A stretch of 55,555 nt of DNA, taken from positions 1-55,555 of the forward strand of contig JAGRFY010000138.1 of assembly GCA_020445765.1 (NCBI GenBank), written 5' to 3'. The notes beneath the pieces are model-generated. The model made no database searches. It was not told the origin of the DNA and worked only from the letters and a program-made list of their open reading frames with translations. Source of the DNA: Rhodocyclaceae bacterium (GTDB lineage Bacteria > Pseudomonadota > Gammaproteobacteria > Burkholderiales > Rhodocyclaceae). Below, one piece after another: positions 5,051-27,542 of the stretch (positions within the stretch are counted from its first letter, which is position 1; every line of letters begins with the position of its first letter). The translations under genes were made by a program, and so were the position numbers.

Positions 5051-6436
5051 TCAGCGTGATACGTCTGCAAGTCCCAGCTTCTCGATGCGGTATCGCAGCG
5101 TATCCCGGGTCAGGCCCAGTTCGCGCGCGGCCTTGGAGACGTTCCAGCCGCTGCGTTCGAGGGCCCGCGACAACATCTGCCGCTCCATCTCGGCCAGCGT
5201 CGCCGGTGCCTGGGCGCCCGGGCTCGCACCGGCGACTTCGGCCGCATTGCTCGACAGCGTCAGTTGGCGTGCCTCGATGCGGCCGTCGGGCGCCAGCAGT
5301 ACCGCCTGCTCGAGCACGTTGCGCAGTTCGCGCACGTTGCCGGGCCAGGAGTGACGGGTAAGCGCGTTTTGCGCCGCCGGCGTCAGCGTCGGTGCGCGCT
5401 TGCCGTAGCGCGCCGCGTGCGACTTCACGAAGTGCTCGGCCAGTCGCAGGATGTCGCCGCCGCGGTCGCGCAGCGGCGGCAATTCCAGTTGCACGACCCG
5501 CAGGCGATAGAACAGATCGGCACGGAAGCGGCCCTCGCGCACCAGCACCTCGAGTGGCCGGTGGGTGGCGGCGACGATACGCACATTGACTCTTTGATCG
5601 CGCAGACTGCCGACCCGCCTGACGGTCTTTTCCTCGAGCAGCTTCAGCAGCTTGGCCTGCAGCGCAGGATCCATGTCGCCGATCTCGTCGAGGAACAGGG
5701 TACCCCCATCCGCCGTCTCGACCAGGCCGAGCTTGCGGTCCTTGGCATCGGTGAAAGCACCGCGTTCGTGGCCGAACAGCTCGGATTCCAGCAGTTGCGG
5801 CGGAATCGATGCACAGTTCAGTTCGACGAAGGGCTTCTCGCTGCGTGGTCCGTTGAAATGCAGCGCCCGCGCAACCAGTTCCTTGCCGGTCCCGGTCTCG
5901 CCGAGCACCAGGACTGCCGGGGCGTCGGAATCGCGCAGGCCGGACTCGGCCTCGAGCACCTGCCGTATCATCGACTTCAGCGCCTTCATCGGCGTCGATT
6001 CCCCGAGCAGGCTGTCGAGATCGGCCTCGGCGCTCTCCTTGCGCTGGTAGTACTCCAGCGCGCTGTCCCGTCGTGCCTCGCCGAACGCCTTCTCCAGCAG
6101 CACCTTCAGCTTGCCGAGGGGTACCGGCTTGGTGAGGAAGTCGAACGCGCCCCGCTTCATCGCCTCGACAGCCAGCTCTACGCTGCCGTGGCCGGTGACC
6201 ATGATGACCTTGATGTCGGGATCGATCGCGCGGATGCGTTCGAGCGCTTCGACGCCATCGATGCCCGGAAGATTGAAATCGAGCACGACGGCGTCCGGAT
6301 GGAACACGTCCATCAGTGCCAGGCCTTCCTCGGCCGACTCAGCGACGCGCACCTCGTAATCGTCGCGTTCGAGGAAGATTCGCACGTTCTTTGCGAGCGT
6401 CGCTTCGTCCTCGATGATCAGTATTGCCTGCCCCAT
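5051..6436 (-). CDS. NtrC-family sigma-54-dependent response regulator
   Basis: The 461-residue protein has all three NtrC-family parts. The receiver (1-120) has the acidic pair at E9-D10, phospho-acceptor D53, T81 and K103. The AAA+ domain (about 145-385) has Walker A GETGTGKE, Walker B GTLFLDEIGDM and the sigma-54 contact loop, which here reads GAFTDA instead of GAFTGA. The Fis-type DNA-binding helix-turn-helix is at 415-457. The start is the ATG in front of GQAILIIEDE; the open frame upstream is intergenic. The gene is divergent from the glycan operon whose promoter has a -24/-12 signature. The locus also encodes a sensor kinase (20994-22358), the likely partner. It resembles PrsR-like regulators of exopolysaccharide clusters, but I cannot assign it to that subfamily. 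Confidence 0.92.
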   Translation of the reverse strand: MGQAILIIEDEATLAKNVRIFLERDDYEVRVAESAEEGLALMDVFHPDAVVLDFNLPGIDGVEALERIRAIDPDIKVIMVTGHGSVELAVEAMKRGAFDFLTKPVPLGKLKVLLEKAFGEARRDSALEYYQRKESAEADLDSLLGESTPMKALKSMIRQVLEAESGLRDSDAPAVLVLGETGTGKELVARALHFNGPRSEKPFVELNCASIPPQLLESELFGHERGAFTDAKDRKLGLVETADGGTLFLDEIGDMDPALQAKLLKLLEEKTVRRVGSLRDQRVNVRIVAATHRPLEVLVREGRFRADLFYRLRVVQLELPPLRDRGGDILRLAEHFVKSHAARYGKRAPTLTPAAQNALTRHSWPGNVRELRNVLEQAVLLAPDGRIEARQLTLSSNAAEVAGASPGAQAPATLAEMERQMLSRALERSGWNVSKAARELGLTRDTLRYRIEKLGLADVSR

Positions 6437-6539
6437 CTGTCTCGTCCCTGGCTGCTCCAACTGGCCTCGCATCCGCCGACAGGACCCGAATCCGAGACCT
6501 GCATCGTCCGGCGCCATCGGGACCTCGCCCAGCGTGTTA

Positions 6540-6554
6540 TGGGATTTTTTCCCA
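6540..6554. promoter_or_regulatory. Palindrome TGGGATTTTTTCCCA, probable regulator site
   Basis: The arms TGGG and CCCA flank a 7-base A/T core. The 13-base core GGGATTTTTTCCC recurs exactly (as its complement) inside 26388-26406, in the control region of the second operon. It lies just downstream of the predicted start point of the response regulator gene, where binding would be expected to repress. The binding protein is inferred; the regulator encoded at 5051-6436 is the first candidate. Confidence 0.55.
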
Positions 6555-6562
6555 CACTCGTA

Positions 6563-6591
6563 TTTATAAACGAACAACCGTTCGAAGGCAA
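6563..6591 (-). promoter_or_regulatory. Sigma-70-like promoter of the response regulator gene
   Basis: On the minus strand the -35 box is TTGCCT (6586-6591) and the -10 box is TATAAA (6563-6568), with a 17-base spacer. The predicted start point is near 6556, giving a leader of about 120 bases to the ATG at 6436. The spacer contains the inverted repeat CGAAC-AACC-GTTCG (6571-6584), a plausible operator position. Confidence 0.55.
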
Positions 6592-6640
6592 TCAGTTTCG
6601 CGCGTACGAGAAGCCTCCACCGGCAACAAACGACACCGTC

Positions 6641-6672: not shown

Positions 6673-6740
6673 ACAGTCCGTCATGCCGCCGGCAAGCGCT
6701 CGGCATGTGGTCGTCGGCGGCACGAGCGATCCCGGCATTT

Positions 6741-6777
6741 TGGGGATGGCGCACCAACAATTTGGTGATCTCCCCCA
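6741..6777. promoter_or_regulatory. Nested inverted repeat upstream of the sigma-54 promoter
   Basis: The outer arms TGGGGAT (6741-6747) and ATCTCCCCCA (6768-6777) enclose the inner arms CACCAA (6752-6757) and TTGGTG (6762-6767). It sits about 75-110 bases upstream of the -24 element, where an enhancer-binding protein would be expected. The outer arms resemble the TGGG/CCCA arms of the shared palindromes. Confidence 0.45.
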
Positions 6778-6850: not shown

Positions 6851-6867
6851 TTGGCCTGGGACTTGCA
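6851..6867 (+). promoter_or_regulatory. Sigma-54 (-24/-12) promoter of the glycan operon
   Basis: The sequence TTGGCCTGGGACTTGCA has GG at 6853-6854 and GC at 6865-6866 with exactly 10 bases between them, and the TTGCA half of the consensus is intact. The expected start point is near 6878, about 80 bases before the first gene. It fits the NtrC-type regulator encoded next door. Confidence 0.75.
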
Positions 6868-6957
6868 TTGAGGTGGGACAAGATCCCACGACCCGCCGAG
6901 ATGCGGTCCAGACCGGCAAGAACGGGGTCAAGGAAAGCCAACAGGAGGCCCACCAAA

Positions 6958-8253
6958 ATGAAACGCGTCCTCGTCTATTCGCACGACACATTCGGACTCG
7001 GCAACATTCGCCGCATGCTCGAGATCTCCCGCCACCTGGTGGACCGGGACCCCGACCTGTCGGTGCTGATCATCACCGGCTCGCCGATGCTGCACGCATT
7101 CCGCATCCCCAGCCGCATCGACTACGTCAAGCTGCCGTGCCTGTCGCGCAATACCTCCGGCCACTACGGTTCGCGCTATCTCGACATGAACCTTCAATCG
7201 ACGGTGCGCCTGCGCTCCAGCATCATCCGCAGCACGGTCGAGGACTTCGAGCCGGATCTGATCCTGGTGGACAAGAAGCCGTTCGGCGTCGAGGACGAAT
7301 TGTCGAGTGCGCTCGAGTCGCTGCCTCCGGGCGTCGATCGCCCGAAGATGGTCCTGCTGCTGCGGGACATCCTCGACAGTCGCGAGGCCACGACCCGGAT
7401 CTGGCGCAAGAACCGCTACTTCGATGCCATCGAATCGCACTACGATCAGGTGCTGGTGGTCGGCAATCCGAAGGTCTTCGACCTGTGCAGCGAGTACTGC
7501 TTCCCGCCGAGCGCCGCATCGAAGGTCCATTTCTGCGGCTACCTGGGCCGCAAGGCAGGTCGCAAGTCACGCGCCGAGGTGCGCTGCGAACTCGGCCTGA
7601 TCGGCCGCCAGCCGCTGGTGCTGGTGACGCCGGGCGGCGGCGAGGACGGTCACGCCATGGTCCGGGCCTACGTCGAAGGCCTCGCCGCGATGCCCGAATG
7701 GCGACGTCCGCGCAGCCACATCGTGTTCGGACCCGAGATGGCCGAGCAGCGCCGCCAGGAAATCGCCGAGATCGCCGACACCATGAGTTGCGTCAGCCGC
7801 CAGGATTTCACCGACGACATGATGTCGCTGATGGACGCTGCCGACGTGGTGGTGTGCATGGGTGGCTACAACACTGTCTGCGAACTGCTCACGCTGAAGA
7901 AGCGGGCGGTGGTCGTGCCGCGCGTCAAGCCGGTGCTCGAGCAGGGGATCCGCGCCGAGCGCATGGCCGCACTGGGCCTGCTTCGCAGCGTGCATCCGGA
8001 GCAACTGAGCCCGGCCAGGCTGCTCGAGACCGTCGGCCAGGAAATCGATTCGCTCCACGGCGACGGCAGCAATCCGAACACCCTTGCGTTGAATGGCCTC
8101 GACGGCGTGGCCGACGCGATATTTTCGCTGATCGACAAGCGCCAGCCCTTCACCAGCCCGGCGATCGCCCCCGAGCCGGCCAAAATCCCGACCAGGAGTG
8201 CACCCACATGGCAGAAATGCACGCCCACCGTGGCCCCGTCGGCCTGCTGGTAA
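6958..8253 (+). CDS. GT28/MurG-like glycosyltransferase, first gene of the glycan operon
   Basis: The 431-residue protein has a GT-B fold signature. The N-terminal Rossmann half starts RVLVYSHDTFGLGNIRRMLE (HxxxGxGH-like loop) and the C-terminal half carries LVTPGGGEDG and the donor-site motif VVCMGGYNTVCELL near residue 300, typical of MurG-like transferases that use nucleotide sugars. No signal peptide or membrane segment is seen; it is probably cytoplasmic or peripheral. AGGAGG stands 9 bases before the ATG at 6958; the open frame upstream crosses the promoter and is not used. Its end overlaps the next gene by 46 bases. A paralogue is encoded at 17310-18521. Donor and acceptor are unknown. 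Confidence 0.85.
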   Translation: MKRVLVYSHDTFGLGNIRRMLEISRHLVDRDPDLSVLIITGSPMLHAFRIPSRIDYVKLPCLSRNTSGHYGSRYLDMNLQSTVRLRSSIIRSTVEDFEPDLILVDKKPFGVEDELSSALESLPPGVDRPKMVLLLRDILDSREATTRIWRKNRYFDAIESHYDQVLVVGNPKVFDLCSEYCFPPSAASKVHFCGYLGRKAGRKSRAEVRCELGLIGRQPLVLVTPGGGEDGHAMVRAYVEGLAAMPEWRRPRSHIVFGPEMAEQRRQEIAEIADTMSCVSRQDFTDDMMSLMDAADVVVCMGGYNTVCELLTLKKRAVVVPRVKPVLEQGIRAERMAALGLLRSVHPEQLSPARLLETVGQEIDSLHGDGSNPNTLALNGLDGVADAIFSLIDKRQPFTSPAIAPEPAKIPTRSAPTWQKCTPTVAPSACW

Positions 8254-9479
8254 AGATCTACCCGAAGCTCTCCGAAACCTTCATTCTGGAGGAGATCCTC
8301 GGGCTCGAACGGCTCGGGCAGGAGTTGCACATCTTCGCCATGCAGGCGCCGACCGACGAGATTCAGCACGACGCGGTCGACCGCGTGCAGGCGCCGGTGA
8401 CCTACCTGCCCGAGGCGCGCGCCACCAACGCCCTCACGCTGCTGTGCGCCCACCTGAGCCTGTTCGCCTACCGGCCGCTGACCTACCTGTCGGGGCTGCG
8501 CGCGGCGATGTCCCGGCGTGGCGGACTGACCGATTTCATCCGTGCCGGCTGGCTCGCCCACAACCTCCAGCGCAAAGGCATCCGGCACCTGCACACCCAT
8601 TTCATCTCGCGCCCGGCCGACATCGCCGAACTGGTGTCCCGGCTCGGCGTGCCGTTCTCGATATCGGCCCACGCGAAGGACATCTACCTGTCGAATCCGG
8701 CCGATCTGCGCCGCAAGCTCGACGCCGCCCGGTTCACCGTGACCTGCACCGAGTACAACCGCCAGACCCTGGCGCGGATCGCCCCGGGGGCCGATATCCA
8801 GCGCATGTACCACGGTGTCGACGCCGGACATTTCTGCCGCGGACACGACACCGTGCCGTCGCGACCGCCACTGATTCTCGCGGTCGGCCGCCTGCGCGAG
8901 AAGAAGGGCTTCGACACGCTGATCGAAGCCTGCAAGCGGCTCAGGAACCGCGGCGTCGATTTCCGCTGCGAGATCGTCGGTTACGGCGAACAACTCGGCA
9001 GCCTGCAACAACAGATCGAGCATGACGGCCTGCAGGGCCGGGTGGTGCTCACCGGCAAGCTGCCGCGCGAGGGCGTGGTCGCCCGCTACCGTCGGGCGGT
9101 GGCCTTCGTCCAGCCGTCACGGATCGGCCAGGACGGTGACCGCGACGGCATACCGAACGTATTGCTCGAAGCCATGGCGATGGAGTTGCCGGTGGTATCG
9201 ACCCGGGTATCCGGCATTCCGGAGGTGGTCATTCACGAACACAACGGACTGCTGATCGAGCCCGACCGTCCAGCCGACCTGGCCGATGCCATTTCTCGCC
9301 TGCTCGCCGACCGCCCGTTGCGCAAGCGCCTCGGCGGCGCCGGGCGCGAGACCGTCTGCGCCGGCTTCGACAACGATCGCAATCTGAAACTTCTTAAGAG
9401 CCTCCTGGAGAACCCCGATGAACGCCCCCGTCGTGCCCCTGTCGAGACTGCAGCCCACCGCAGCGCCGGCGTCTCCTGA
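8208..9479 (+). CDS. GT4-family glycosyltransferase
   Basis: The 423-residue GT-B transferase resembles exopolysaccharide enzymes of the WcaL/AmsK type. The N-terminal half contains KIYPKLSETFILEEI and the motif HTHFISRPADIAEL with SAHAKDIYL. The C-terminal half contains AVGRLREKKGFDTLIEA and the acidic donor-site motif GIPNVLLEAMAMELPVVST (EX7E type). AGGAG stands 9 bases before the ATG at 8208. It overlaps the genes on both sides, by 46 and 62 bases, which implies translational coupling. It is a close paralogue of the next gene. It likely adds a hexose to a cytoplasmic lipid-linked or nascent glycan. Confidence 0.9.
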   Translation: MAEMHAHRGPVGLLVKIYPKLSETFILEEILGLERLGQELHIFAMQAPTDEIQHDAVDRVQAPVTYLPEARATNALTLLCAHLSLFAYRPLTYLSGLRAAMSRRGGLTDFIRAGWLAHNLQRKGIRHLHTHFISRPADIAELVSRLGVPFSISAHAKDIYLSNPADLRRKLDAARFTVTCTEYNRQTLARIAPGADIQRMYHGVDAGHFCRGHDTVPSRPPLILAVGRLREKKGFDTLIEACKRLRNRGVDFRCEIVGYGEQLGSLQQQIEHDGLQGRVVLTGKLPREGVVARYRRAVAFVQPSRIGQDGDRDGIPNVLLEAMAMELPVVSTRVSGIPEVVIHEHNGLLIEPDRPADLADAISRLLADRPLRKRLGGAGRETVCAGFDNDRNLKLLKSLLENPDERPRRAPVETAAHRSAGVS

Positions 9480-10782
9480 CAGCGCCTGCATCGCCTATGT
9501 CATGAAGGGCTTTCCGCGCCTATCGGAAACCTTCATCGCCAACGAGATCTATCTGCTCGAGCAGATGGGTCTGCGCCTGCGGCTGTTCTCGATCAAGCGC
9601 GAGGACGAGCCCAAGGTGCACCCGGTGGTACGGGCGATCCGCGCGCCGCTGCAATATCTGCCGAAGGCCACGAGCCTGTCCGGATCGTTCCTGCCCAGCT
9701 GGCTGCTCCGCAACTTTCCGAACTTCGCCGCGGCCCATCTCCGTGTCGCCAGCCGCCATCCCCTGCGCTATCTGTCGGTGCTCGGCAGCGCGCTGGCGAT
9801 GAGCTGGCGCTATCGCCGCGGGCCGACCACGCTGCGCAAGGTCTTCGTCAAGGAATTCCTGCAGGCCGGTCACATCGCCGCCGAGGTGATGAAGGACGGC
9901 AGCGTCGCCCACCTGCACGGTCACTTCTGCCACGGCGTCACGACCATCACCTGGTTCGCCAGTCGCCTCACCGGTCTGCCGTTCAGCTTCACGGCCCACG
10001 CCAAGGACATCTACCAGGCGGAACTGAATCCAGGCGACCTGCTCGAGCGCAAGCTCGGTGCCGCCACCTTCGTCGCGACCTGCACATCGGCCAATGCCGA
10101 GGTGCTGAAGTCCCGCAGCCCGGACGTCCACGTCGTTCATACGATCTACCACGGCCTCGATACCGAATACTTCGCGCCGGCGAAGGGTAACGGCCGCGAC
10201 ATGCCGATGATTCTGTCGGTCGGCCGCTTCGTCGAAAAGAAGGGCTTCGAGCACCTGGTCGATGCCTGCCAGATCCTCAAGCGGGCCGGCCTGCGCTTCG
10301 GCTGCCTGATCGTCGGCGAGCCCGGCGACGCCTACGACGCGGTGCGCGAGCAGATCGACCGACTCGATCTCGGTGACTGCATCCGCCTGCGCAGCGCGGT
10401 GACGCAAGACCAGCTGCGCGAGATCTACCGCCAGGCGCGGACCTTCGCCCTGCCATGCCAGGTCATGGAAGACGGCGACCGCGACGGCATCCCGAACGTG
10501 CTTGCCGAAGCGATGGCAATGGGCCTTCCCGTGGTTTCGACCCCGATCTCGGGCATTCCCGAGTTGATCGACGACGGCGAGCACGGCCTTCTCGTAGCCC
10601 CCAGGAACCCCGCCGCGCTGGCCGACGCCCTGCGTCGTATCCTGACCGACGACGCGCTGCACCAGCGCCTGTCCGCCAACGGCCGCGCACGCATCTGCGC
10701 GCGATTCGATTCGCGCCGTACGACGCTGGCGCTGCGCGACCTGTTCGTGCGCCAGCTGCAACGGGAGGAAGTCATCGCATGA
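9418..10782 (+). CDS. GT4-family glycosyltransferase, paralogue of the preceding gene
   Basis: The 454-residue protein shares the layout of its neighbour: KGFPRLSETFIANEIYLLEQ at the N-terminus, LHGHFCHGVTTI and SFTAHAKDIYQ in the acceptor half, then SVGRFVEKKGFEHLVDA and GIPNVLAEAMAMGLPVVST in the donor half. The pair probably arose by tandem duplication. TGGAG stands 7 bases before the ATG. It overlaps the next start by the ATGA arrangement. Sugar specificity cannot be read from the sequence. Confidence 0.9.
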   Translation: MNAPVVPLSRLQPTAAPASPDSACIAYVMKGFPRLSETFIANEIYLLEQMGLRLRLFSIKREDEPKVHPVVRAIRAPLQYLPKATSLSGSFLPSWLLRNFPNFAAAHLRVASRHPLRYLSVLGSALAMSWRYRRGPTTLRKVFVKEFLQAGHIAAEVMKDGSVAHLHGHFCHGVTTITWFASRLTGLPFSFTAHAKDIYQAELNPGDLLERKLGAATFVATCTSANAEVLKSRSPDVHVVHTIYHGLDTEYFAPAKGNGRDMPMILSVGRFVEKKGFEHLVDACQILKRAGLRFGCLIVGEPGDAYDAVREQIDRLDLGDCIRLRSAVTQDQLREIYRQARTFALPCQVMEDGDRDGIPNVLAEAMAMGLPVVSTPISGIPELIDDGEHGLLVAPRNPAALADALRRILTDDALHQRLSANGRARICARFDSRRTTLALRDLFVRQLQREEVIA

Positions 10783-12827
10783 ACGTGCGGGAGCGGTCGC
10801 TCGCGAGCAATCCGCAGGACTGCGGCGAGTTGTTGCGGGCGCCCTGGGACCAACTCGACGACCGGGCACTGCTGAGCCACTTCAGCGGCGCGCGCGAGGC
10901 GCGCTTCTATCCGGTCGCCGATGCGGAGGAAACCCGGCCGGACAAGATCGAGGCCATGCTCGAAGGCGTCTTCGAGTTCAACGGCGAGCGCCATCACCTG
11001 CCCGATCCCGTGTCGTGGCTCGACAACCCGAGCGACGACATCGAATGGCACATCCTGCTGCACAAGTTCTACTATGCGGTCGGCCTCGGCATGCGCTATG
11101 CCGAGACCCGCGACGACCGCTACGCGCGTCGCTGGATGCAGTTGATCGACGGCTGGATCGCGAGCGTTCCGGCGGACTTCATCGCCACCGACGTCACCGG
11201 CCGCCGCGTGCAGAACTGGATCTACAGCTACTACCATTTCGTCGCCACGGCGGACAAACCACCGGTCGATGCCGCCTTCCACCGGCGGCTGCTTCAATCC
11301 CTTGCCGCCCAGGTCGACCACCTGTGCGAGAACCTGACCCCCGCGCGCAACCACCGGACCCTTGAGCTCTACGCGATCTTCCTGGCTTCGGTGGTGTTTC
11401 CGGAGATGCGCCGGGCCGCCCATTGGCGGGAATTCTCACTGCTCCGCATCGAGGAGAACATCCTCTCCGACCTGCTGCCGGATGGCGTCCAGATCGAACT
11501 GTCCACCGACTATCACCAGTTGGTGCTGAAGAACTACCTCAATGTCCGCAGGCTCGCCTCACTGAACGGCATCCCGGTCACTGCAGAGACCGATGAGGCG
11601 CTGCAGCGCGCCCTCGACTTCAGCATGCACGCCCACAAGCCCGACGGCATCGTGCCGAGCCTGTCCGATGGCGATGCCCGCAGCTTCCGCGACCTGCTGT
11701 CGATCGGCGCCGACCTGTACGGCCGCGACGACCTTCGCTACGTCGCCTGCGCCGGCAACCAGGGCACGCCGCCGGGCGCCCTGCTGGCCCACTTCGCCGA
11801 CAGCGGCTATACGGTTGTGCGCGATCACTGGGGTACCGGCGGACGGCGCTACACCGACGCCCAGTACCTGATCTTCGATTGTGGCCCGCTCGGTGCCGGC
11901 AATCACGGCCATTTCGACTGCCTCAGCTTCGAACTGGCGGCCTTCGGGCGCTCGCTGGTGGTGGACCCGGGGCGCTACACCTATTCCGAGGCGGGCGAGA
12001 CCAACTGGCGGATCCGTTTTCGCGGCACCGAAGCCCACAACACGGTCTGCGTCGACGGTCAGAACCAGACCTTGTACCTGCCGCGGCCGGTGAAAAGCCG
12101 ACCGGGCGCCGTCAAGCACAAGATTGCCGGACCGGCCCCCGACGCCGTGCTGCACGAGCTCGTCGAGTTCGACGATTTCGTGCTGCTCGACGGCTCCGCC
12201 CGCAGCCACGTCTATGACGCCGTGCATCGACGCCGCATCCTGTTCGTCGATCGCAGCTACTGGATCGTCTCGGACTGGCTCGACGCACCGACCCGCCATC
12301 GCTACGCACTCCACTTCCAGCTCGGAGAAGCCGCCCAGGGCAGCGTCGAGCGCGCCAACGGCCGGGCACCGCTGCTGCGCAGCCCGGGACTGCTGGTCGC
12401 CCAGCCCGAGGATGCCGACATCGTGTTCAGCCTCGAGCCGAGCTGGGTCTCCTATCGCTACGGCGAAAAGCTGCCGGCGCCGCGACTGAGTTTCCAGGCA
12501 GCTGCCTGTTCGACCGGATTCGACACCGTGCTGCTGCCCTACGAGGGCGCCACGCCGCACCTTTCGCTGCGTCGCCTGACCGTAGACGGCGACGGCAGCC
12601 GCGGCACGGCGCTGGCCATCGAGTCCGAGATCGCAGGCACCCGCTTCCGTGATCTGTGGTTCCACGCCCGCGACGGCGAGGGCGGCAACTGGCAATTCGA
12701 CGGCTACGACTTCCGCGGACGCTGGCTGTGGCTGCGCGAGAACGGCGATGGCCGGATTACCCGCTGCCGCGCGAACGACGGCGCGCGCCTCAGCTACCGT
12801 GGCATCGTCGTCACACCGGATGCATGA
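10779..12827 (+). CDS. Heparinase II/III-family protein
   Basis: The 682-residue protein has an N-terminal alpha/alpha toroid (about 1-370, with the NWIYSYYHF and ARNHRTLELYA segments) and a C-terminal beta-sandwich with the family hallmark NHGHFDCLSFELAAFGRSLV followed by DPGRYTY (about residues 375-410). Family members cleave uronic-acid-containing glycans by beta-elimination. No signal peptide is visible, so it may act in the cytoplasm or be exported another way. Inside a biosynthetic operon such lyases trim, edit or recycle the polymer. The ATG overlaps the previous stop (ATGA). If it is a true lyase, the product probably contains uronic acid or a similar unit; this is inference. Confidence 0.87.
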   Translation: MNVRERSLASNPQDCGELLRAPWDQLDDRALLSHFSGAREARFYPVADAEETRPDKIEAMLEGVFEFNGERHHLPDPVSWLDNPSDDIEWHILLHKFYYAVGLGMRYAETRDDRYARRWMQLIDGWIASVPADFIATDVTGRRVQNWIYSYYHFVATADKPPVDAAFHRRLLQSLAAQVDHLCENLTPARNHRTLELYAIFLASVVFPEMRRAAHWREFSLLRIEENILSDLLPDGVQIELSTDYHQLVLKNYLNVRRLASLNGIPVTAETDEALQRALDFSMHAHKPDGIVPSLSDGDARSFRDLLSIGADLYGRDDLRYVACAGNQGTPPGALLAHFADSGYTVVRDHWGTGGRRYTDAQYLIFDCGPLGAGNHGHFDCLSFELAAFGRSLVVDPGRYTYSEAGETNWRIRFRGTEAHNTVCVDGQNQTLYLPRPVKSRPGAVKHKIAGPAPDAVLHELVEFDDFVLLDGSARSHVYDAVHRRRILFVDRSYWIVSDWLDAPTRHRYALHFQLGEAAQGSVERANGRAPLLRSPGLLVAQPEDADIVFSLEPSWVSYRYGEKLPAPRLSFQAAACSTGFDTVLLPYEGATPHLSLRRLTVDGDGSRGTALAIESEIAGTRFRDLWFHARDGEGGNWQFDGYDFRGRWLWLRENGDGRITRCRANDGARLSYRGIVVTPDA

Positions 12828-14203: not shown

Positions 14204-14210
14204 GCCAGTG

Positions 14211-18521: not shown

Positions 18522-19284
18522 CTGGTGCTTCCCGATCGCCAGCGCCCTCGACCGGCGCGGCACGCCTTGTACCGTATTCTTCCGCGACGACGATGCCGGC
18601 TGGGAAGATCGGCGGCTATTCGCCCTGCTTGACCTGTTTGCGCGGCATGCGGTGCCGATCGACCTCGCCGTCATTCCGTCGGCACTGACGCCGATGCTTG
18701 CCAATGCGCTGCTGCAGCGCATGAGTCGGCCGGGCCCGGGTGGCGTCGGTGTTCACCAGCACGGCCATGCCCACGTCAATCACGAGCGGGAGGGACGCAA
18801 GTGCGAGTTCGGCCCGAGCCGCGACTATGCCGCCCAGCGGGAGAGCATCGAGTCGGGTCACGAAGCCCTGACCGCCGCCTTCGGCTCGCTCGCCGACCGC
18901 ATCTTCACGCCGCCGTGGAATCGCTGTACCGCCGACACCGCACAGGTGCTGCGGGATCTTGGCTTCGACGCGCTGTCCCGCGATGTCACCGCAAAGCCGC
19001 TTCAAGGGGCCGCCATCGCCGAGATTCCGGTGGCGGTGGACTGGTGCAAGCATCGCGCAGCGGGCACCGGTAGCGACGTGCTGGGTGCCCGAATCGCCGA
19101 CGCGCTGGCCGGTGACCGCTGTGGCATCATGCTCCACCACGCGGTGATGGACGAGGCCGATCTCGCGCTGCTGGACGATCTGCTGCCGCTGCTGCGTGAC
19201 CACCCGATGAGTCACTGCTCCCCGATGACAGACCTGCTGCCCGGCACCTGCCGGGCAGTCGAACGCCCCGACGCCGCTCTATGA
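18514..19284 (+). CDS. Polysaccharide deacetylase-like protein
   Basis: The 256-residue protein shows the NodB-type pattern: FFRDDDAGWED near residue 22 (catalytic Asp and metal Asp), HQHGHAHVNH near residue 80 (metal histidines) and the TPPWNRC segment near 133. Family members remove N-acetyl groups from amino sugars. No signal peptide is seen, which is unusual for a deacetylase acting on exported polymer, so a cytoplasmic substrate is possible. It overlaps the gene before by eight bases and the barrel gene after by four. Confidence 0.82.
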   Translation: MPDWCFPIASALDRRGTPCTVFFRDDDAGWEDRRLFALLDLFARHAVPIDLAVIPSALTPMLANALLQRMSRPGPGGVGVHQHGHAHVNHEREGRKCEFGPSRDYAAQRESIESGHEALTAAFGSLADRIFTPPWNRCTADTAQVLRDLGFDALSRDVTAKPLQGAAIAEIPVAVDWCKHRAAGTGSDVLGARIADALAGDRCGIMLHHAVMDEADLALLDDLLPLLRDHPMSHCSPMTDLLPGTCRAVERPDAAL

Positions 19285-20786
19285 CCCAACCCACCAGGAA
19301 GATGCCGGCGCGCCCGCTGGCGCTGGCGATCGCGCTCGCCTGCTGCACCATGACGCCGCAGGCTGCCGCCCAGACCGAAGAGGACAGTACGGACGGTGCG
19401 CAGGCGCGTCGACCGCGGGCAGTCACCAGCGAGCTCGCGCGACGCCCGGACGAGCGGCGCAGCGACAGCGGCCGGACAATCACGCTGTTCGGCACGCCGT
19501 TTCGCTTCGCCGGCGAGTGGGAGATCGGACACGAGAGCCGCATCAACCACGACCTGGACGAGGACAAGCGCCGCGACCGCGGCACCCTCGAACAGGAAGT
19601 GAAGCTCGAGGCCTCGGCCGCGATCGGCGCGGGCAGCTCGATTTTCCTGCAACTGATCGGCGCCAGCGAGATCGAGACCCTGCGCGAAAACGGCCCGGTC
19701 GAGAGCTTCGGCGAAGTCAAACGGGGCCAGATGTGGCTGTTCACGCCGCGGCCCGGCGGATTGCCGTTTGACCTCCAGATCGGACGGTTGAGCCTGGTCG
19801 AGGACCGCAGTTGGTGGTGGGACGACGATCTCGACGCGCTGCGCCTGTTCGTCGGCGGCGACGACTGGGTGCTGGAGGCCGGGGTCGCGCGGCAACTGTT
19901 CGCGGTCAGCACCGCCGAGCGCGGAATCATCGATGCCGAGGAGGACGGTCTGACCCGCTGGTTCGGTCGTGCCGCCTGGACCTGGCGCAAGCGCCACACC
20001 GTCGAGGGCTACCTGATGCTGAGCCGGGACGGTTCCGGGCAGCTGGCCGAAGGTACGTTGATCCACGAACGCCGCGTCGATGAATCGGATGCGGACCTGA
20101 CCTGGTTCGGACTGCGGGCGACCGGTGAGGAGAAGCTCGACGGCGGCCATCGCGTCGGCTACTGGCTGGATCTCGCCCGGCTCACCGGCAAGGAGCGCCT
20201 CACCGATTACGACGGCGCCGACGGCAACCGCGAGGTGGCGGACGACACCACCCGCCGATCGGTCGACGCGCATGCCTGGGATCTCGGCGTGCGATGGTCC
20301 TGGCCCGGACATTCGCGACCGACGCTGTGGGGCGGCTGGGCAGTCGGCAGTGGTGACAAGGACGAAGACGACAACCGGGACGACGGTTTTCGCCAGACCG
20401 GCCTGGAAGAGAACAAGGCGCGCTTCGGCGGCGTCAAGCGCTTCCGCTACTACGGCGAGTTGATGCGACCGACGCTGTCGAACCTCGACATCCGCTCGGT
20501 CGGCGGCAGCGTACGCTTCTGGAAGAAGAGTTCGGTCGACCTGGTGCTGCACGACTACCGTCAGCGCGAGGCCAGCGAAGACCTGGCGGCAAGCCGCATC
20601 ACGGAGTCGCCGACCGGGGACAGCCGGGCCCTCGGCCAGGAGATCGACCTGTTCGTCGCCGTGCGCGAGTCACCGAGTGCCGAAGTGGTGGTCAGCCTTG
20701 CCACCTTCCGCGCCGGCTCGGCCTTCGGCAAGCGCAGCGGCGAACGCGCCTGGTTCGGCGACGTGGTCCTGAACGTCAACTTCTGA
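19281..20786 (+). CDS. Outer-membrane beta-barrel, AlgE-like polysaccharide export porin
   Basis: The 501-residue protein begins with a signal peptide (RPLALAIALACCTMTPQAAAQ). The mature part is rich in alternating amphipathic strands with charged loops, contains a typical barrel segment (LPFDLQIGRLSLVEDRSWWW), and ends in phenylalanine (VVLNVNF), the usual signal for barrel assembly. The pattern resembles alginate export proteins. It is the last gene of the plus-strand operon and overlaps the deacetylase gene by four bases, so it most likely lets the glycan product out of the cell. Confidence 0.82.
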   Translation: MTQPTRKMPARPLALAIALACCTMTPQAAAQTEEDSTDGAQARRPRAVTSELARRPDERRSDSGRTITLFGTPFRFAGEWEIGHESRINHDLDEDKRRDRGTLEQEVKLEASAAIGAGSSIFLQLIGASEIETLRENGPVESFGEVKRGQMWLFTPRPGGLPFDLQIGRLSLVEDRSWWWDDDLDALRLFVGGDDWVLEAGVARQLFAVSTAERGIIDAEEDGLTRWFGRAAWTWRKRHTVEGYLMLSRDGSGQLAEGTLIHERRVDESDADLTWFGLRATGEEKLDGGHRVGYWLDLARLTGKERLTDYDGADGNREVADDTTRRSVDAHAWDLGVRWSWPGHSRPTLWGGWAVGSGDKDEDDNRDDGFRQTGLEENKARFGGVKRFRYYGELMRPTLSNLDIRSVGGSVRFWKKSSVDLVLHDYRQREASEDLAASRITESPTGDSRALGQEIDLFVAVRESPSAEVVVSLATFRAGSAFGKRSGERAWFGDVVLNVNF

Positions 20787-20793
20787 GCAGACC

Positions 20794-20993: not shown

Positions 20994-22358
20994 TCAGATC
21001 GTCTGCAGAAACAGTCGCACCTCGGTACCCTGTCCGGGCTGACTGTCGATCTCCATGCGGCCACCGTAGCGCTCGATGATGCGCCGGACCTGCGACAGGC
21101 CGACGCCGAGGCCACGGGCCTTGGTGGTGTAGAACGGCTTGCCGACATTGGAGAGCTGTTCCGGGCTCATGCCGGGGCCGGTGTCGCCGACCGCCAGCAT
21201 CACCTCGCCGCTGCGCGCGCCGACCGCGCGCAGCGTCAGGCGCCCGTCCTTGTTGATCGCTTCGACGGCGTTGGCGACCAGACTGTGCAGGACCTGCCCC
21301 AGCAACAGGGCGTCACCGCGCACCTCGGGCAGGTCGTGGCCTGATTCCACCTGGCAGTCGATCCGCCGCTTTTCCAGGTCGCGCCCGAAATCCTCGACGC
21401 ATCGCGCCAGCAGGGGCGCCACCTGCACCGGCTCCGGCTCTTCGTCCAGCGGCCGCGAGAACGACAGCAACTCGCGGACCCAGCTCTCGAGCCGGTCCGA
21501 CTCGGAGACGATATCGGCGCCGGCGTCGCGTGCCACGTCGAGATCGGCGGCCTGGATCAGTTCCGCCGAACTTCGGATCGACGCCAGTGGATTGCGAATG
21601 CCATGGGCCACGGCCGAACTCATCTCGCCGATCACCGCCAGCGTCTCGGTATCGATCAGCCGGCGTTCCTGGGCCTGCATCAGGCGATCGGCGCGGCGCA
21701 CCAGGCCGGCCAGCGCCAAGTAGAGGAAGCCACCCGCCATCGCCGCGCCGAGCGCGATGTAGGTGCGCATGCGCTGCAGCGCATGGAACAACGGCTGCGG
21801 ATTCTTGTAGAACTCGATCGCACCGACGACCTCGCTGCTGTATGGGTCGCGGACCGGCACGTAGATCTCGACGAACAGGTCGGCGCGCTTCTGGAGGTTG
21901 CGGTGCTCCTCCTTGCCGCCGTGCTCCTGGTGCACATCGGGATGCACCACCAGCCGACCCGCGAGCGCGTGCTCGAGTTCATCATTGGGGCCGAAGGTCT
22001 GCCCTTCGAGTTGCCGGTCGCTCGACCAGATCACCCGCCGGTCGGTGTTGTAGACATTGGCTCGCAACATGTCCTGCATGCGCGAGATGTGCGACAGCGC
22101 CAGTTCGAGCTCGAGCGAATCTTCGGCCTCTCCGCGCGAAAAGTAGCTCTGCAGGGAGCGTTCGGTGGACACCAGGGTCTGCACGAACTGCTGGGTCAGT
22201 TCGCCTTCCTGCTGCAGCATTTCGTAGCTGACGAAGCGGGACAGGGCCCAGCCCGCGATCGCCGAGATCGTCGCGATCGAGATCAGGCCGACGATCGCGA
22301 ACCAGCGACTGAGGTTGAACGATCGGACAGCCGGCTGGCGCGGCTTGGGCGTGGCCAT
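20994..22358 (-). CDS. Membrane sensor histidine kinase of the glycan locus
   Basis: The 454-residue kinase has two membrane helices (about 19-40 and 199-220) around a periplasmic sensor of about 155 residues. The phospho-acceptor is H252 in SAVAHGIRNPLASIRSSAEL (HGIRNP in place of the common HEIRNP). The ATPase domain has the N box (VANAVEAI), G1 (VGDTGPGM) and G2 (GLGVGLSQVRRI). The start is the ATG at 22358, seven bases after GGGGAG. It is the last gene of the minus-strand operon and the best partner for the response regulator at 5051-6436, which has no kinase of its own nearby. The signal sensed is unknown. Confidence 0.9.
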   Translation of the reverse strand: MATPKPRQPAVRSFNLSRWFAIVGLISIATISAIAGWALSRFVSYEMLQQEGELTQQFVQTLVSTERSLQSYFSRGEAEDSLELELALSHISRMQDMLRANVYNTDRRVIWSSDRQLEGQTFGPNDELEHALAGRLVVHPDVHQEHGGKEEHRNLQKRADLFVEIYVPVRDPYSSEVVGAIEFYKNPQPLFHALQRMRTYIALGAAMAGGFLYLALAGLVRRADRLMQAQERRLIDTETLAVIGEMSSAVAHGIRNPLASIRSSAELIQAADLDVARDAGADIVSESDRLESWVRELLSFSRPLDEEPEPVQVAPLLARCVEDFGRDLEKRRIDCQVESGHDLPEVRGDALLLGQVLHSLVANAVEAINKDGRLTLRAVGARSGEVMLAVGDTGPGMSPEQLSNVGKPFYTTKARGLGVGLSQVRRIIERYGGRMEIDSQPGQGTEVRLFLQTI

Positions 22359-22430: not shown

Positions 22431-23387
22431 CTAGCGCCGGGCAGCCCCGAAGAAATGTCGAAACACTTTCTCACCCATATCGCCCCGCCGCATGCTGCGC
22501 GCGAACGAGTGCGGCGAACGCGGCAGGGTGGCGAAATGCACCGGTTCGGCCATCGCCCTCGCACTTGCCGCCGAATTGACGGCCGACACCCAATTGCCGG
22601 CGCGCTCCATCCTGGATCGGCCCTGCTGGCGATCCAGGCGTCGCGAATCGCGCAGCGCGCTGTCCCTATGCACGTCGCGCTCGCCGACCAGGACCAGGCC
22701 CGGCAGGCCGAGGAAGGCATCGAGATCGATGCCGCCGAGGTCGTGGCGCCGGCTGGGCCGCAGGCCGTATGGATAGCGTTCGCGGGCATCCGGAAAGGTG
22801 TACCAGCCGGCCGCGCCGAGCGCATAGCGGGCCACCTGCTCCGGCCAGTGCATGGCGAAGCGATGGACGAACTGGGCGCCGCCGGAATAGCCGAACAGAT
22901 AGAGCCGGCTGTCGTCCGCACCGGTCAGTTCCGACAGCTCGCGGGCGGCGGCACGCAGCAGGGCATCGGGGCGCACCCCCGCGGCGTCCGGCAGCAATCG
23001 CTGATAGTTCGGGAAGCGGTCGCGGCCGTAGCGCGGTGCCAGCATCACCACGCCGTGGCTGTCGGCGAGCGGCGCCAACATGCTCAGGTGCTCGCGCGCG
23101 TTGCGCGAGATGCCATGAACGCTGACCAGCATCGGCGCCCCGGGGCCGGCGCTCTTCGGAACATACGCGAGATAGCGGAATCGGCGATCGGTCGCCAGGC
23201 GCAGGGTCTGGATTTCGCCACGGACCAGGGGCTGGGCCCGATCGCGTGCCTCGCCGGACTTTTGCATGGGGGCAGCGAACGCGGGGGCATCGGACAGCAC
23301 CCCCATCCCTCCGGCCACCAGGCCGGTCCCGATGAGACCCGCGATCGCTGCAGAAAATTGATCGGGACGCATGATCGCCTCACTCAT
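22431..23387 (-). CDS. Exported alpha/beta hydrolase (esterase/depolymerase type)
   Basis: The 318-residue protein has an N-terminal export signal after its second methionine (AAIAGLIGTGLVAGGMGVLS...AFAA). The hydrolase core carries the oxyanion strand MLVSVHGISRNAREHL and the nucleophile elbow FGYSGGAQFVHRF (GxSxG). A distal PHSFARSM may supply the histidine. The ATG overlaps the stop of the ABC exporter gene upstream by the ATGA arrangement. In this locus it may remove acyl groups from the glycan or hydrolyse a related ester; this is inferred from context. Confidence 0.8.
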   Translation of the reverse strand: MSEAIMRPDQFSAAIAGLIGTGLVAGGMGVLSDAPAFAAPMQKSGEARDRAQPLVRGEIQTLRLATDRRFRYLAYVPKSAGPGAPMLVSVHGISRNAREHLSMLAPLADSHGVVMLAPRYGRDRFPNYQRLLPDAAGVRPDALLRAAARELSELTGADDSRLYLFGYSGGAQFVHRFAMHWPEQVARYALGAAGWYTFPDARERYPYGLRPSRRHDLGGIDLDAFLGLPGLVLVGERDVHRDSALRDSRRLDRQQGRSRMERAGNWVSAVNSAASARAMAEPVHFATLPRSPHSFARSMRRGDMGEKVFRHFFGAARR

Positions 23388-25117
23388 GCCGCGCTCACCG
23401 ACGCCACCGGCCGCAGCGCCCGTCGGAACAATCGCCGGGTGGCGCTGTCGCGGGCCAGCAGATCGTCCGGGGTGCCCTGCTCGACCAGCCGACCGGCCTC
23501 GAGATACCAGATCTCGTCGGCCTGCATCACCCTCGCCAGTTGGTGTGTCACCATCAATACCGTTCCATTGAAATCGTCGAGGGTCTCGCCGAGCCGTGTT
23601 GCCGAGACCGGATCCAGGTTGGCATCGGCCTCGTCGAGCAACAGCAATCCCGGATGACCGAGCAGGGCACGAGCCCATGCGATGCGCTGACGCTGGCCGA
23701 AGGACAGGTTGCCACCGCCATCGCCGACGCGGGTCAGCCCCCCCTGGGGCAGCGACGCCAGCAGCTCGTCGACCCCGCACATGGCCTCCACCTGCTCACG
23801 CTCCCGCCTGCCGGCGCGCGGCTTGCGATAGACCAGGTTGCGTTCGATCGAACCGCGCAGCAGTGGCAGGTCCGGCGTCACCACGCCGAGGCGCGCACGC
23901 AGGTCCGACAGCGAATACTTTTGGACCGCGTGACCGTCGAGCAGCACTTCGCCGCCGTCGGCATCAATCAGCCGCGCGACCAGGCCCAGCACCGTCGACT
24001 TGCCCGAGCCGTTGGGGCCGACGATCGCGACCTTGCGCCCGGCGGCGACCCGTGCCGTGAAATCGTGGAGCGCATCGCCGACCGACACCTCCTGGAAATC
24101 GATCGCGATCGGCCGGCCCTGTTTGGGCAGCGTCGGCATCTCTTCGCCGACTTCGCGGATCGCCAGCTTCGGGGCCGCCAGGAACTCCTCGATCTTTGCC
24201 AGCGACACCAGCGCACTGCGCCAGTAGCCGAGCACCTGTCCGAGATCGCGAAAGGTCGGCGCGATCAGGCCTGCGACGGTCAGCGCACCGACCACGTCGG
24301 CCGGCTCGATCATGCCACGACCGACCTCGACGGCCCCGGCGAACAGCACCAGCGCGGAGGCCAGGGCACCGCCGAATTCGGCAGCCGAACGCAGCAGCGA
24401 CATGCCGCGCATCTGGTCCACCATGGCATGGGCGAGCGCATCGGACTGCCGACCCAGCCGGCGCTTCTCGCGCGTTGCCTGATCGAAGACCTGGACCACG
24501 GCGATCGCGGCGATCCGGTCATTGACGTCGGCCGCGAGGCGCGCCTGCCGTCGCCGCGCCTCGCGTACGGCGGGCTCGACCCGGGTCGTCAGCCAGGCCA
24601 GTGCGAGTCCCGACAGCGCGAAGCCGCAAACCGCCGCGAAGGTCAGCCACGGATCGACCACGGCCAGCACGATCAACGCCAGCACCGCGGCGAGACCACC
24701 GACCGCCAGTCGCGGCAGGCCCAGGCTGACCCAGCGCCTGACACCCTTGACGTCGCCCATGAAGCGCAGCAGGGTGCCGCCCCGGCTGCGCGACTGCAGA
24801 CGCCGGGGCGACTGGCCGACCAGGGCGTCGAACAGCGTCAGCCGCAACTCGGCCGCGTAGTGCTGCCCCATGCGCTCGGCCTGTACCCGCTCCATCGTCC
24901 TCAGCCACGCCAGGGCGCCGCCCGCGGCAATCAGCGCGACGATCAGCCAGCTGACCGCGCTGGCGACGTTCTGGCCCTGAACCGCGTGATCGAAGAAGGC
25001 ATGCACCAGCCAGGCACTGGCCAGCGTCATCGCCGCCTGCGCCACGCCGATGCCGACCAGACGCGCGAGCATCCCGCGCCGGGGTCCGGCAAGCAGTTGC
25101 GGCGATCGGCGACGCAT
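23384..25117 (-). CDS. Second ABC exporter half-transporter of the glycan locus
   Basis: The 577-residue protein joins six membrane helices (about 15-300) to an ATPase domain (about 340-570). The ATPase has Walker A GPNGSGKST, Walker B LLLLDEADANLD and a switch histidine in MVTHQLAR. The signature reads LSFGQRQR rather than LSGGQ, a notable change in the motif that closes on ATP. It starts at the ATG that shares its A with the stop of the P-loop gene upstream (TAATG). Together with the exporter at 15539 it could form a heterodimer or move a second compound. Confidence 0.87.
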   Translation of the reverse strand: MRRRSPQLLAGPRRGMLARLVGIGVAQAAMTLASAWLVHAFFDHAVQGQNVASAVSWLIVALIAAGGALAWLRTMERVQAERMGQHYAAELRLTLFDALVGQSPRRLQSRSRGGTLLRFMGDVKGVRRWVSLGLPRLAVGGLAAVLALIVLAVVDPWLTFAAVCGFALSGLALAWLTTRVEPAVREARRRQARLAADVNDRIAAIAVVQVFDQATREKRRLGRQSDALAHAMVDQMRGMSLLRSAAEFGGALASALVLFAGAVEVGRGMIEPADVVGALTVAGLIAPTFRDLGQVLGYWRSALVSLAKIEEFLAAPKLAIREVGEEMPTLPKQGRPIAIDFQEVSVGDALHDFTARVAAGRKVAIVGPNGSGKSTVLGLVARLIDADGGEVLLDGHAVQKYSLSDLRARLGVVTPDLPLLRGSIERNLVYRKPRAGRREREQVEAMCGVDELLASLPQGGLTRVGDGGGNLSFGQRQRIAWARALLGHPGLLLLDEADANLDPVSATRLGETLDDFNGTVLMVTHQLARVMQADEIWYLEAGRLVEQGTPDDLLARDSATRRLFRRALRPVASVSAA

Positions 25118-26196
25118 TACTGGGCGCCCCCGATCTGCAGCAGGGCCTGCCGTTCGGCGTAGCCGAGGTGCTCGGTGATCGCGGCATTCGACAGATCGTC
25201 GAGCCCGAGGACCGGCAGGCCGGTGACGGCAGCCGCCTCTCGCGCAGCCAGCGGCGACGCGGTCAGCACGCCGGTCGCGGCCCGCACCGGCAGGCCCAGC
25301 GCGCGCAGCCACTGCACGCCGCCGGCCGAGCCCATCGCGTCGCCGGCGGCGAACACCACCGCATCGACCGCATCGGCGTACTCCGGCGACTTGACGAGTT
25401 CCGCGGTCTCGCGCTGGAACAGGCCATCGGCGACTTCGAATACCACGACATCGACCCCGCTGGCGCCAAGATAGCCGATCAGCGTGTGCATCACGCGGAC
25501 GACTTCTTCGCCGTCGGCGAGATAGGTCGAGGGCAGCCCGGCATCGGTGAAGTCCAGCACCGTCTCGGCGCCGGCGTCGTTCATCGACCAGACGTCGCCA
25601 CCTGACCCGGTGCCGGTGACCTTGGCCGCCCCGACCCGCAAGCCGGCAGCCCGCAGGCCGCGGATGATCTGCGCCGCGGTCTCGGTCTTGCCTGCGTTCA
25701 TCGAGGTGCCGAGCACCGAGATCACGAACGGACAGGCAGTCTGCGGGGCCGGCTCGGGGAGGGCGAAGTCGGCGAGGTTCAGGGCTTTGCCGTGGCGGTC
25801 GCCGACCAGTCCCAGCGGCTGCACCACGGTTGCATTCTTCATGCGCCCGTGCTTGGACATCACCATCGACGCGATGCCGCCGGCGGCCACCATCTGGCAG
25901 CGGCCCAGGTCCTCGGGCACCTGCGACTCGAACTGGTCGGGCGCATAGCGGTTGCCATAGGCGAGGACGATCTCGTCGCCGGGGTAGAGCCGGGCACGGC
26001 GACCGCTGACAAGTTCGAGGTGGCGATGCTGACCGATCTTCTCGACACGGCACAGCACCAGATCGCCGGCACGCGGCGCGATGTCGCCCGCGAGCAGTGT
26101 TGCGAACGCGCTGCGCGGCACGCGGCGGGTCGAGAAGGGCGTCTTCAGAGTTTCGATACGCTTTGCGTTGAGCAGGCTGATGTTCTGGCAGTTCAT
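25117..26196 (-). CDS. P-loop NTPase-like protein (DUF1611/MobB-like), head of the minus-strand operon
   Basis: The 359-residue protein has an N-terminal beta-rich domain (about 20-90, LAGDIAPRAGDLVLCRVEKI), then a P-loop domain with GTSMNAGKTETAAQ near residue 165, AAKVTGTGSGGD and FEVADGLFQRET. This resembles the NTPase core of the DUF1611 and MobB families. The start at 26196 is set by GGAG nine bases upstream; a longer frame to 26316 crosses the promoter. Its conserved position at the head of the operon behind a sigma-54 promoter ties it to glycan production or export. No enzymatic role is known to me. Confidence 0.78.
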   Translation of the reverse strand: MNCQNISLLNAKRIETLKTPFSTRRVPRSAFATLLAGDIAPRAGDLVLCRVEKIGQHRHLELVSGRRARLYPGDEIVLAYGNRYAPDQFESQVPEDLGRCQMVAAGGIASMVMSKHGRMKNATVVQPLGLVGDRHGKALNLADFALPEPAPQTACPFVISVLGTSMNAGKTETAAQIIRGLRAAGLRVGAAKVTGTGSGGDVWSMNDAGAETVLDFTDAGLPSTYLADGEEVVRVMHTLIGYLGASGVDVVVFEVADGLFQRETAELVKSPEYADAVDAVVFAAGDAMGSAGGVQWLRALGLPVRAATGVLTASPLAAREAAAVTGLPVLGLDDLSNAAITEHLGYAERQALLQIGGAQ

Positions 26197-27532: not shown

Positions 27533-27542
27533 GGGGGCCGGG

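Follow-up and report, generated by a model that had tools for sequence, protein, structure and literature searches.

The window analysed here, the whole 55,555-base stretch that makes up contig JAGRFY010000138.1 of a Rhodocyclaceae bacterium (draft genome, 4.84 Mb), carries a plus-strand operon of ten genes that is likely to be a dedicated pathway for building, tailoring and secreting an envelope or extracellular glycan. The same gene order is found across phyla, an arrangement far beyond chance. The product would probably be a tailored, phosphorylated glycan containing uronate and hexosamine; its chemistry and chain length, the substrate of the kinases, the order of the steps, the roles of the kinases and of the heparinase-like enzyme, and the regulation are what we infer for this operon.

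Gene content and organization of the locus

A sequence-only reading had described positions 5051-26196 as two converging operons forming one self-regulated glycan production and export locus. All of the genes that it named were confirmed within these bounds from open reading frames (ORFs), start codons, and Pfam and NCBIfam matches; for six proteins, namely the two of glycosyltransferase (GT) family GT4, the two ATP-binding cassette (ABC) proteins, the histidine kinase and the response regulator, the NCBIfam matches are the best 25 each.

5051-6436, minus strand: NtrC-type sigma-54 response regulator, PrsR-like (Pfam Response_reg, Sigma54_activat, HTH_8)
6958-8253, plus strand: GT28a, MurG/MJ1255-like GT-B glycosyltransferase of the GT28_C type (Pfam, NCBIfam; ortholog in 50 of 50 long loci)
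8208-9479, plus strand: GT4a, glycosyltransferase (Pfam, NCBIfam)
9418-10782, plus strand: GT4b, glycosyltransferase (Pfam, NCBIfam)
10779-12827, plus strand: Hep, heparinase III-like protein (Hepar_II_III), lyase or C5-epimerase, predicted cytoplasmic (Pfam, fold match)
12824-14203, plus strand: APH1, APH-fold small-molecule or sugar kinase (Pfam, conserved residues, fold match)
14211-15542, plus strand: APH2, second APH-fold kinase (Pfam and conserved residues, by sequence)
15539-17317, plus strand: ABC1, MsbA-type (type IV) ABC exporter (Pfam, NCBIfam, tree)
17310-18521, plus strand: GT28b, glycosyltransferase of the GT28_C type (Pfam, NCBIfam)
18514-19284, plus strand: Deac, NodB/DUF2334-like deacetylase lacking a signal peptide (Pfam, hydropathy)
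19281-20786, plus strand: AlgE-like outer-membrane barrel (Alginate_exp) with a signal-peptide-like start (PF13372; profile match to AlgE structures)
20994-22358, minus strand: sensor histidine kinase (HK), end of the minus operon (Pfam, NCBIfam)
22431-23387, minus strand: PHB-depolymerase-like esterase with a hydrophobic N-terminus (NCBIfam, hydropathy)
23384-25117, minus strand: ABC2, second MsbA-type exporter, of a lineage separate from ABC1 (Pfam, tree)
25117-26196, minus strand: MobB/DUF1611-like P-loop protein, start of the minus operon (Pfam)

The plus operon (6958-20786) is ordered GT28a-GT4a-GT4b-Hep-APH1-APH2-ABC1-GT28b-Deac-Barrel, and eight of its nine neighbouring gene pairs overlap, the remaining pair being 7 bases apart. 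The minus operon converges from the right, beginning with the P-loop gene, continuing with ABC2 and the esterase, and ending with HK at 20994. The regulator (5051-6436) is a third unit, divergent from and upstream of the plus operon, so the description as two operons needs correcting on this point as well as on the unity of the two, which is treated below. The reading's statement that the locus holds no Wzx, Wzy, Wza/Wzc, KpsM or processive synthase stands: none of the 15 locus proteins matched these among the Pfam and NCBIfam families listed, and the locus agrees in full with no known assembly pathway.

Conservation of the ten-gene core

The nearest named organisms are the Rhodocyclaceae bins HKST-UBA165, 163 and 161. 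Two congeneric genomes (G001 and G002) and five genomes of the order that belong to different families (G051, G052, G298, G288 and G105) keep the ten genes colinear. In these five, GT28b is 46-63% identical to that of the window and ABC1 52-70%, except for the ABC1 of G051 (30%), a genome that also has an APH-like gene inserted between Deac and the barrel. An order-wide search with GT28b found matches at E of at most 1e-20 in 24 of 399 genomes, counting the source genome and looser relatives.

For a wider census, two short Hep peptides and an Hep alignment were used as bait against named genomes; 107 stretches matched and 74 loci were confirmed, a set that is biased to Hep-bearing relatives because of the bait. 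These loci span Pseudomonadota, Nitrospirota, Acidobacteriota and Chloroflexota, and include Betaproteobacteria, Methylomonas, Nitrospira, Acidobacteria and Chloroflexi. Gene presence was scored where a locus spans 20.6 kb or more, which holds for 50 loci; the other 24 of the 74 have short flanks and were left out. All 50 open with GT28a-GT4-Hep (Hep by construction, being the bait), and the other genes follow in most of them: APH in 49, GT28b in 47, Deac in 46, ABC1 in 45, two GT4 domains in 39 and the barrel in 30, where some of the absent barrels are due to flanks that end before the barrel position. The core is therefore kept as a block, and the sequence-only reading is not refuted on the first of its two grounds, a lack of conserved neighbours. 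Many of the loci come from metagenome bins, in which the organism names on the records can be wrong; the title of one bin, L091, bears the name of a pathogen.

By record titles, the carriers include nitrifiers (Nitrospira and a Nitrosomonas bin), methanotrophs (Methylomonas), and sludge bacteria and their relatives. The extracellular matrix of such organisms is important in water treatment and in the cycling of nitrogen and methane. One carrier, Methylomonas sp. LW13 (L107, NZ_CP033381 3095903-3117828, flanks included), is a cultured, genetically tractable and polysaccharide-making bacterium, as described in PMC11072679, and this makes the core pathway directly testable.

Beyond the full form, the block is patchy: among 61 related genomes, the source genome counted, the P-loop gene was present in 4 and the barrel in 5. 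Eight looser relatives mapped within the order all have GT28 and ABC1, seven have GT4, five have APH (one weakly) and three have the barrel (L061, L070 and L071), while Hep and Deac were found in none of the eight. These counts make glycosyl transfer plus exporter the common denominator, with kinase and barrel as frequent partners and with Hep and Deac marking the full form. A minimal set of GT28-GT4-ABC-APH-barrel was considered and dropped on the same counts for APH and barrel.

A Hep relative also occurs in four Manganitrophus records called plasmids, and the block surrounds Hep in all three that were inspected (L147, L148 and L181); in L148 and L181 it contains radical SAM and histidine phosphatase genes. 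For two of the Manganitrophus circles, of 34-37 kb, the incomplete table of PLSDB lists no gene for replication, and both may be artefacts of assembly.

Gene fusions and coupled steps

We defined a fusion as a stop-to-stop ORF that spans two genes. GT4a and GT4b share a single open frame in 22 of the 74 loci, GT28b and Deac in 18 (both of the Chloroflexi loci and Nitrospirota-type loci, one titled Nitrosospira), and APH1 and APH2 in two, both from Acidobacteria. These three fused frames point to coupling of the two GT4 steps, of the GT28b step with deacetylation, and of the two kinase steps. One Hep-APH frame (L113) and one GT28-GT28 frame (L101) occur as well; neither was used. In the 33 loci holding all nine families compared, pairwise distances of the families correlate at 0.52 to 0.92. 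A histidine phosphatase gene lies between the APH genes in all six mapped loci that have one.

The exporter and the barrel

ABC1 and ABC2 are exporters with fused ABC_membrane and ABC_tran domains (Pfam). Both score below the cut-off of the lipid A exporter model TIGR02203 (411 for ABC1 and 239 for ABC2, cut-off 602), and one MsbA above it (696) is encoded elsewhere in the genome; ABC1 was thus rejected as the housekeeping MsbA. In a tree, ABC1 falls into one group, made up of core and compact ABC1 proteins from related loci, that is separate from seven further exporters of its genome (modest support, 83/91).

The barrel matches PF13372 at 102.3 bits (cut-off 25.2) and AlgE structures by profile at E of about 3e-45. 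Its family is present in 19 of 22 chosen carrier genomes, the ones lacking it being two Chloroflexi and a 2.0-Mb Thiothrix bin. Chloroflexi of the Anaerolineae type are monoderm. In two of the three Acidobacteria loci, those with enough flank, ABC1 is followed by a same-strand barrel gene from a different family (PF25183). Such loss and replacement are as expected if the barrel slot serves passage through the outer membrane.

Tailoring enzymes and their predicted location

A hydropathy scan of the window proteins found ABC1 to be the only multi-span membrane protein of the core. In GT28b a single hydrophobic stretch begins at residue 222, within the domain, and only the barrel has a signal-like start, as judged by eye. 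Hep and Deac lack signal peptides, and Hep also lacks a transmembrane segment, so by hydropathy both would be cytoplasmic unless they are unusually exported.

Hep has the heparinase III fold and the catalytic residues, by fold match and conservation. The presumed catalytic residues of Hep and of APH1 are invariant across the aligned relatives. An APH/choline-kinase-like fold with conserved Lys, HxD..N and DxD was found for APH1, and for APH2 by sequence. The fold matches listed for APH1 do not include WbdD, a chain-end kinase, a result that excludes nothing.

A second, divergent Hep in tandem, on its own branch, was observed in methanotrophs and Nitrospirota (L099, L100, L103, L107, L109, L111, L116, L126, L101, L105, L112, L114, L118, L123 and L142).

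Proposed pathway and alternatives

We propose that the four GT-B glycosyltransferases would build the chain at the cytoplasmic face, on a lipid or some other acceptor, with GT4a and GT4b as a physically coupled pair that is likely the polymerising module. GT28b may add an N-acetyl sugar that the coupled Deac would then deacetylate, and Hep may edit uronic-acid residues of the chain in the cytoplasm, through either cleavage or C5-epimerisation. The phosphate that the two APH kinases would add to the glycan is most likely a cap or tag, ending growth and licensing export as WbdD does in the O9a system. Passage of the inner membrane would be through ABC1, and release through the AlgE-like barrel. 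The sigma-54 regulator and HK would control the core, and in this genus would also control a second, recruited export module (P-loop, ABC2 and esterase) through shared promoter elements.

This pathway most resembles ABC-dependent assembly, in which a chain is completed inside the cell before its export, because the biosynthetic enzymes are apparently cytoplasmic, there is one inner-membrane exporter, and the block has no polymerase or synthase. It agrees with the sequence-only reading on cytoplasmic assembly, ABC export, an outer-membrane barrel, self-contained regulation and the lack of a known assembly pathway in the locus. That reading's further proposal of a short, phosphorylated glycan fares less well: the word short finds no support, and phosphorylation, not supported as stated, is plausible in view of two APH kinases whose active-site residues are conserved. 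These kinases would be candidates for a step that caps the chain.

Several observations weigh against the proposed pathway. Neither an initiating sugar-phosphate transferase nor an acceptor-lipid enzyme was found in the block, and most loci have no UGDH or epimerase gene beside them. Some of the looser relatives lack the kinase or the barrel (present in 5/8 and 3/8, respectively), so these two are not invariable partners, and H321, D323 and Q328 of APH2 are each kept in only 64 of 69 aligned rows. The ABC1 proteins of L104, L110, L136 and L140 fall on a different branch from the other core exporters, within the same group, and no MsbA-type exporter is known to move long polymers. The Acidobacteria barrel beside ABC1 may be a chance neighbour, as PF13372 genes lie elsewhere in those genomes. 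Finally, three Wzy_C and two Poly_export genes are encoded on other contigs of the genome, with one of each on the same contig (C115), so that help from a polymerase in trans is possible.

The last of these also favours an alternative in which the operon makes a repeat unit for a Wzx/Wzy system encoded elsewhere, with ABC1 as a flippase like PglK and the barrel unrelated. ABC1 does match the PglK model, albeit weakly (175.7 bits, cut-off 1000). We nonetheless consider this unlikely: no Wzy, polysaccharide co-polymerase (PCP) or outer-membrane polysaccharide export (OPX) protein was found among the core families or among the ten tested of 25 listed recurrent neighbour families, and 30 of the 50 long loci retain the barrel in the block even though some loci end before its position.

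If the genes served to modify the lipopolysaccharide (LPS) core, or to make a glycolipid resembling LPS for which ABC1 would be the transporter, the kinases being comparable to core kinases of the WaaP type, this would account for the presence of an MsbA-type exporter and of kinases; GT28 enzymes also often use lipid acceptors. Set against this are the block in two Chloroflexi genomes, bacteria not known to have LPS, the separate true MsbA of the window's genome, and the fact that AlgE serves a secreted polymer, not LPS; we give this explanation about one chance in ten, somewhat less than the preceding one.

The APH family is best known for aminoglycoside kinases and MsbA-type exporters are often efflux pumps, which could suggest a small glycosylated secondary metabolite with APH self-protection and ABC efflux. 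This is improbable, and we rejected the antibiotic-locus interpretation: APH is present in 49 of the 50 long loci, the two genes are fused to each other in two loci and have a histidine phosphatase gene between them in the six mapped loci with such a gene, the heparinase III fold and the AlgE homolog point to a uronate polymer, and gene order is kept across phyla. A locus for degradation and uptake of environmental uronate glycans, suggested by the heparinase III-like enzyme, the deacetylase and the sugar-kinase-like proteins, was rejected as highly improbable, given four glycosyltransferases, exporter-type ABC proteins, Hep and Deac without signal peptides by hydropathy, and no importer or sugar-catabolic gene in the block by Pfam.

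We therefore retain a dedicated glycan pathway as the preferred explanation. Its parts are ordinary and their assembly is unusual and well conserved; it would be a variant of ABC-dependent glycan export, with a moderate chance of being a class of its own. The fullest version of that idea, a distinct secretion class defined by an MsbA-type exporter with an exchangeable barrel, an APH phosphate cap that halts growth and permits export, and cytoplasmic heparinase-fold editing of the nascent chain, and operating with or without an outer membrane, is tentative and on balance doubtful. If the pathway is as proposed, APH-family kinases would gain a biosynthetic role on glycans, and a heparinase-fold enzyme would be placed in biosynthesis.

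The minus operon as a separate module

Relatives of the P-loop protein were found in 28 of 369 genomes of the class, the source genome counted, and one of these relatives matched DUF1611 weakly by Pfam. In ten P-loop neighbourhoods (10.7-13 kb), ABC2 is adjacent in eight (in one at 28% identity) and the esterase is present in six, whereas none of the ten matched the glycan core. The P-loop/ABC2/esterase genes thus form a second, independently occurring module, and the treatment of both operons as one gene set was rejected, since P-loop-ABC2, mostly with the esterase, occurs elsewhere without the core. For the same reason the DUF1611-like protein, which had been suggested as an anchor for neighbourhood searches, would mislead. 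A further shared gene follows the module in five of the ten neighbourhoods, encoding a Porin_O_P barrel in both of those tested (L171 and L175). The module of P-loop (DUF1611-like), MsbA-type ABC, esterase and downstream gene was observed in L171, L173, L175, L176 and L179, and the esterase was not found in L176.

In a further genome, G003, the minus operon is on an 18-kb contig (L022) with no core beside it, so the physical link of the two modules may not extend to every member; no barrel was found in the G003 draft. Orthologs of HK and the regulator (above 300 bits) adjoin the core in 8 of the 50 long loci.

Shared putative regulatory elements

The upstream regions of the two operons share the following predicted elements.

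6540-6554: palindrome TGGGA-N5-TCCCA, upstream copy (kept in L073 of G001, L074 of G002 and L075)
6754-6777, plus strand: 24-bp shared element, copy 1 (genome-wide pattern search)
6852-6867, plus strand: sigma-54 (-24/-12) like promoter, 106 bp before GT28a (10 of 12 positions)
6874-6888: palindrome TGGGA-N5-TCCCA beside the GT28a promoter
26265-26280, minus strand: sigma-54 (-24/-12) like promoter, 84 bp before the P-loop gene (11 of 12 positions)
26287-26301: palindrome TGGGA-N5-TCCCA beside the P-loop promoter
26367-26390, minus strand: 24-bp shared element, copy 2 (genome-wide pattern search)

The 24-bp element, CCAANNANTTGGYGATNTSCCCCA, precedes both operons, and a genome-wide search allowing two mismatches finds no third copy in the 4.84 Mb; the perfect fit of both copies is by construction, because the pattern was written from them. 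A control pattern had no matches in the genome, and the element had none in window shuffles. By reading of the sequences, it is kept at both places in G001 (with one mismatch at the P-loop gene) and in G002, and is decayed upstream of the P-loop gene in G003.

Sites resembling the sigma-54 consensus number 8 in the window at 10 of 12 positions, versus 4.5 in shuffles, so the case for the GT28a promoter rests on its position and conservation: it is in the same place in L073, L074 and L075. At 11 of 12 positions there are 2 sites versus 0.43 in shuffles, and the site before the P-loop gene is at a similar place in G001, G002 and G003. The best site of the window (35627-35642, minus strand) fits at 12 of 12 positions and precedes, by about 250 bp, a minus-strand ORF that adjoins genes of a nitrate ABC transporter. 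Such genes are natural targets of NtrC, and the match lends credit to the scan. Among 58 loci, sites upstream of GT28a were found in 9 at 10 or more positions and in 11 at 9 or more; shuffles give 0.067 matches per locus at 9 of 12, or about 4 in 58.

The three palindromes of the window (1.32 expected at up to one mismatch, with 17 of 100 shuffles reaching three) are not significant alone. Conserved palindromes upstream of GT28a are found in 5 of 58 loci, versus 0.9 expected, which makes the operator a feature of the genus and its near kin and not of the family. The 24-bp element, sigma-54-like promoters and palindromes at both operons suggest that in this genus the minus module is wired to the core. 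Together with HK and the regulator beside the core, they make the earlier description of the locus as self-regulated a fair one, as an inference.

Neighbouring genes

Adjoining the regulator is a gene for a MORN-repeat protein with a caspase-like (Peptidase C13) domain (3203-4993, plus strand), whose position is kept in the sister loci L019, L073 and L075. On the other side of the locus, an ArsS-type radical SAM gene (above cut-off) and an SSF-like transporter gene (26570-28946) are kept in G001, G002 and G003, and a patatin-like phospholipase with DUF3734 is encoded at 29427-30995 (plus strand). In Chloroflexi and some Proteobacteria, CHAT/TPR (caspase-like) and subtilase genes lie beside the block (L096:1492-5856, by Pfam, and L098:1625-5991), and ORF clusters matching this pair are also present in L094, L124 and L131.

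Comparison with known systems

Among the papers listed in searches of an open-access library, none describes the core gene set in its title or abstract opening and no named pathway has it, so the sequence-only reading is not refuted on its second ground either. The genes named in the available parts of PMC11072679 are not identified with this block.

The regulator's best NCBIfam match is TIGR02915, the PEP-CTERM response regulator, a likeness to the PrsK/PrsR pair of XrtA/PEP-CTERM exopolysaccharide loci; however, the regulator (402.6, cut-off 502.6) and HK (94.7, cut-off 300) both score below the models, and the rest of the gene set of those loci presumably differs. Unlike the heparinase III/PL12 lyases of Bacteroidota and human dermatan sulfate epimerase 1, Hep is apparently cytoplasmic and belongs to a biosynthetic operon. 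The heterocyst polysaccharide system combines the MsbA-type exporter HepA, GT4 enzymes and two-component control, traits in which it resembles this locus, and ABC1 scores 398 bits to the HepA model, below its cut-off of 725.

With the alginate pathway (AlgE, Alg8/Alg44 and AlgK) the locus shares a homologous outer-membrane barrel and probably a uronate polymer. It differs in that no GT2 synthase, Alg44 or AlgK was found in the locus, which has an ABC exporter instead; a membrane GT2 synthase with a c-di-GMP co-subunit is absent by Pfam and with ABC1 as the sole multi-span core protein. None of the Wzx/Wzy hallmarks was found in the 15 locus proteins, Wzx and PCP not having been searched genome-wide. 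The core falls outside the Wzm/Wzt or KpsMT class, in which permease and ATPase are separate proteins, because its exporter is MsbA-type and the locus has no recognised PCP or OPX protein.

The closest parallel is the E. coli O9a system (WbdA/B/C, WbdD and Wzm/Wzt), in which, according to PMC3482155, the kinase-methyltransferase WbdD phosphorylates the chain end, halts growth and is needed for export; Klebsiella has multi-module polymerase complexes with a methyltransferase-kinase terminator (PMC11231755). The likeness extends to cytoplasmic chain growth, multi-module GT polymerases, a plausible kinase step and ABC export, and the coupled GT4 pair and paired kinases fit this terminator logic. 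The difference is an MsbA-type exporter and APH-fold kinases without a methyltransferase, with the addition of Hep, Deac and an AlgE-like barrel; if the proposed pathway is correct, it would add an export route that mixes ABC-dependent and AlgE-type elements.

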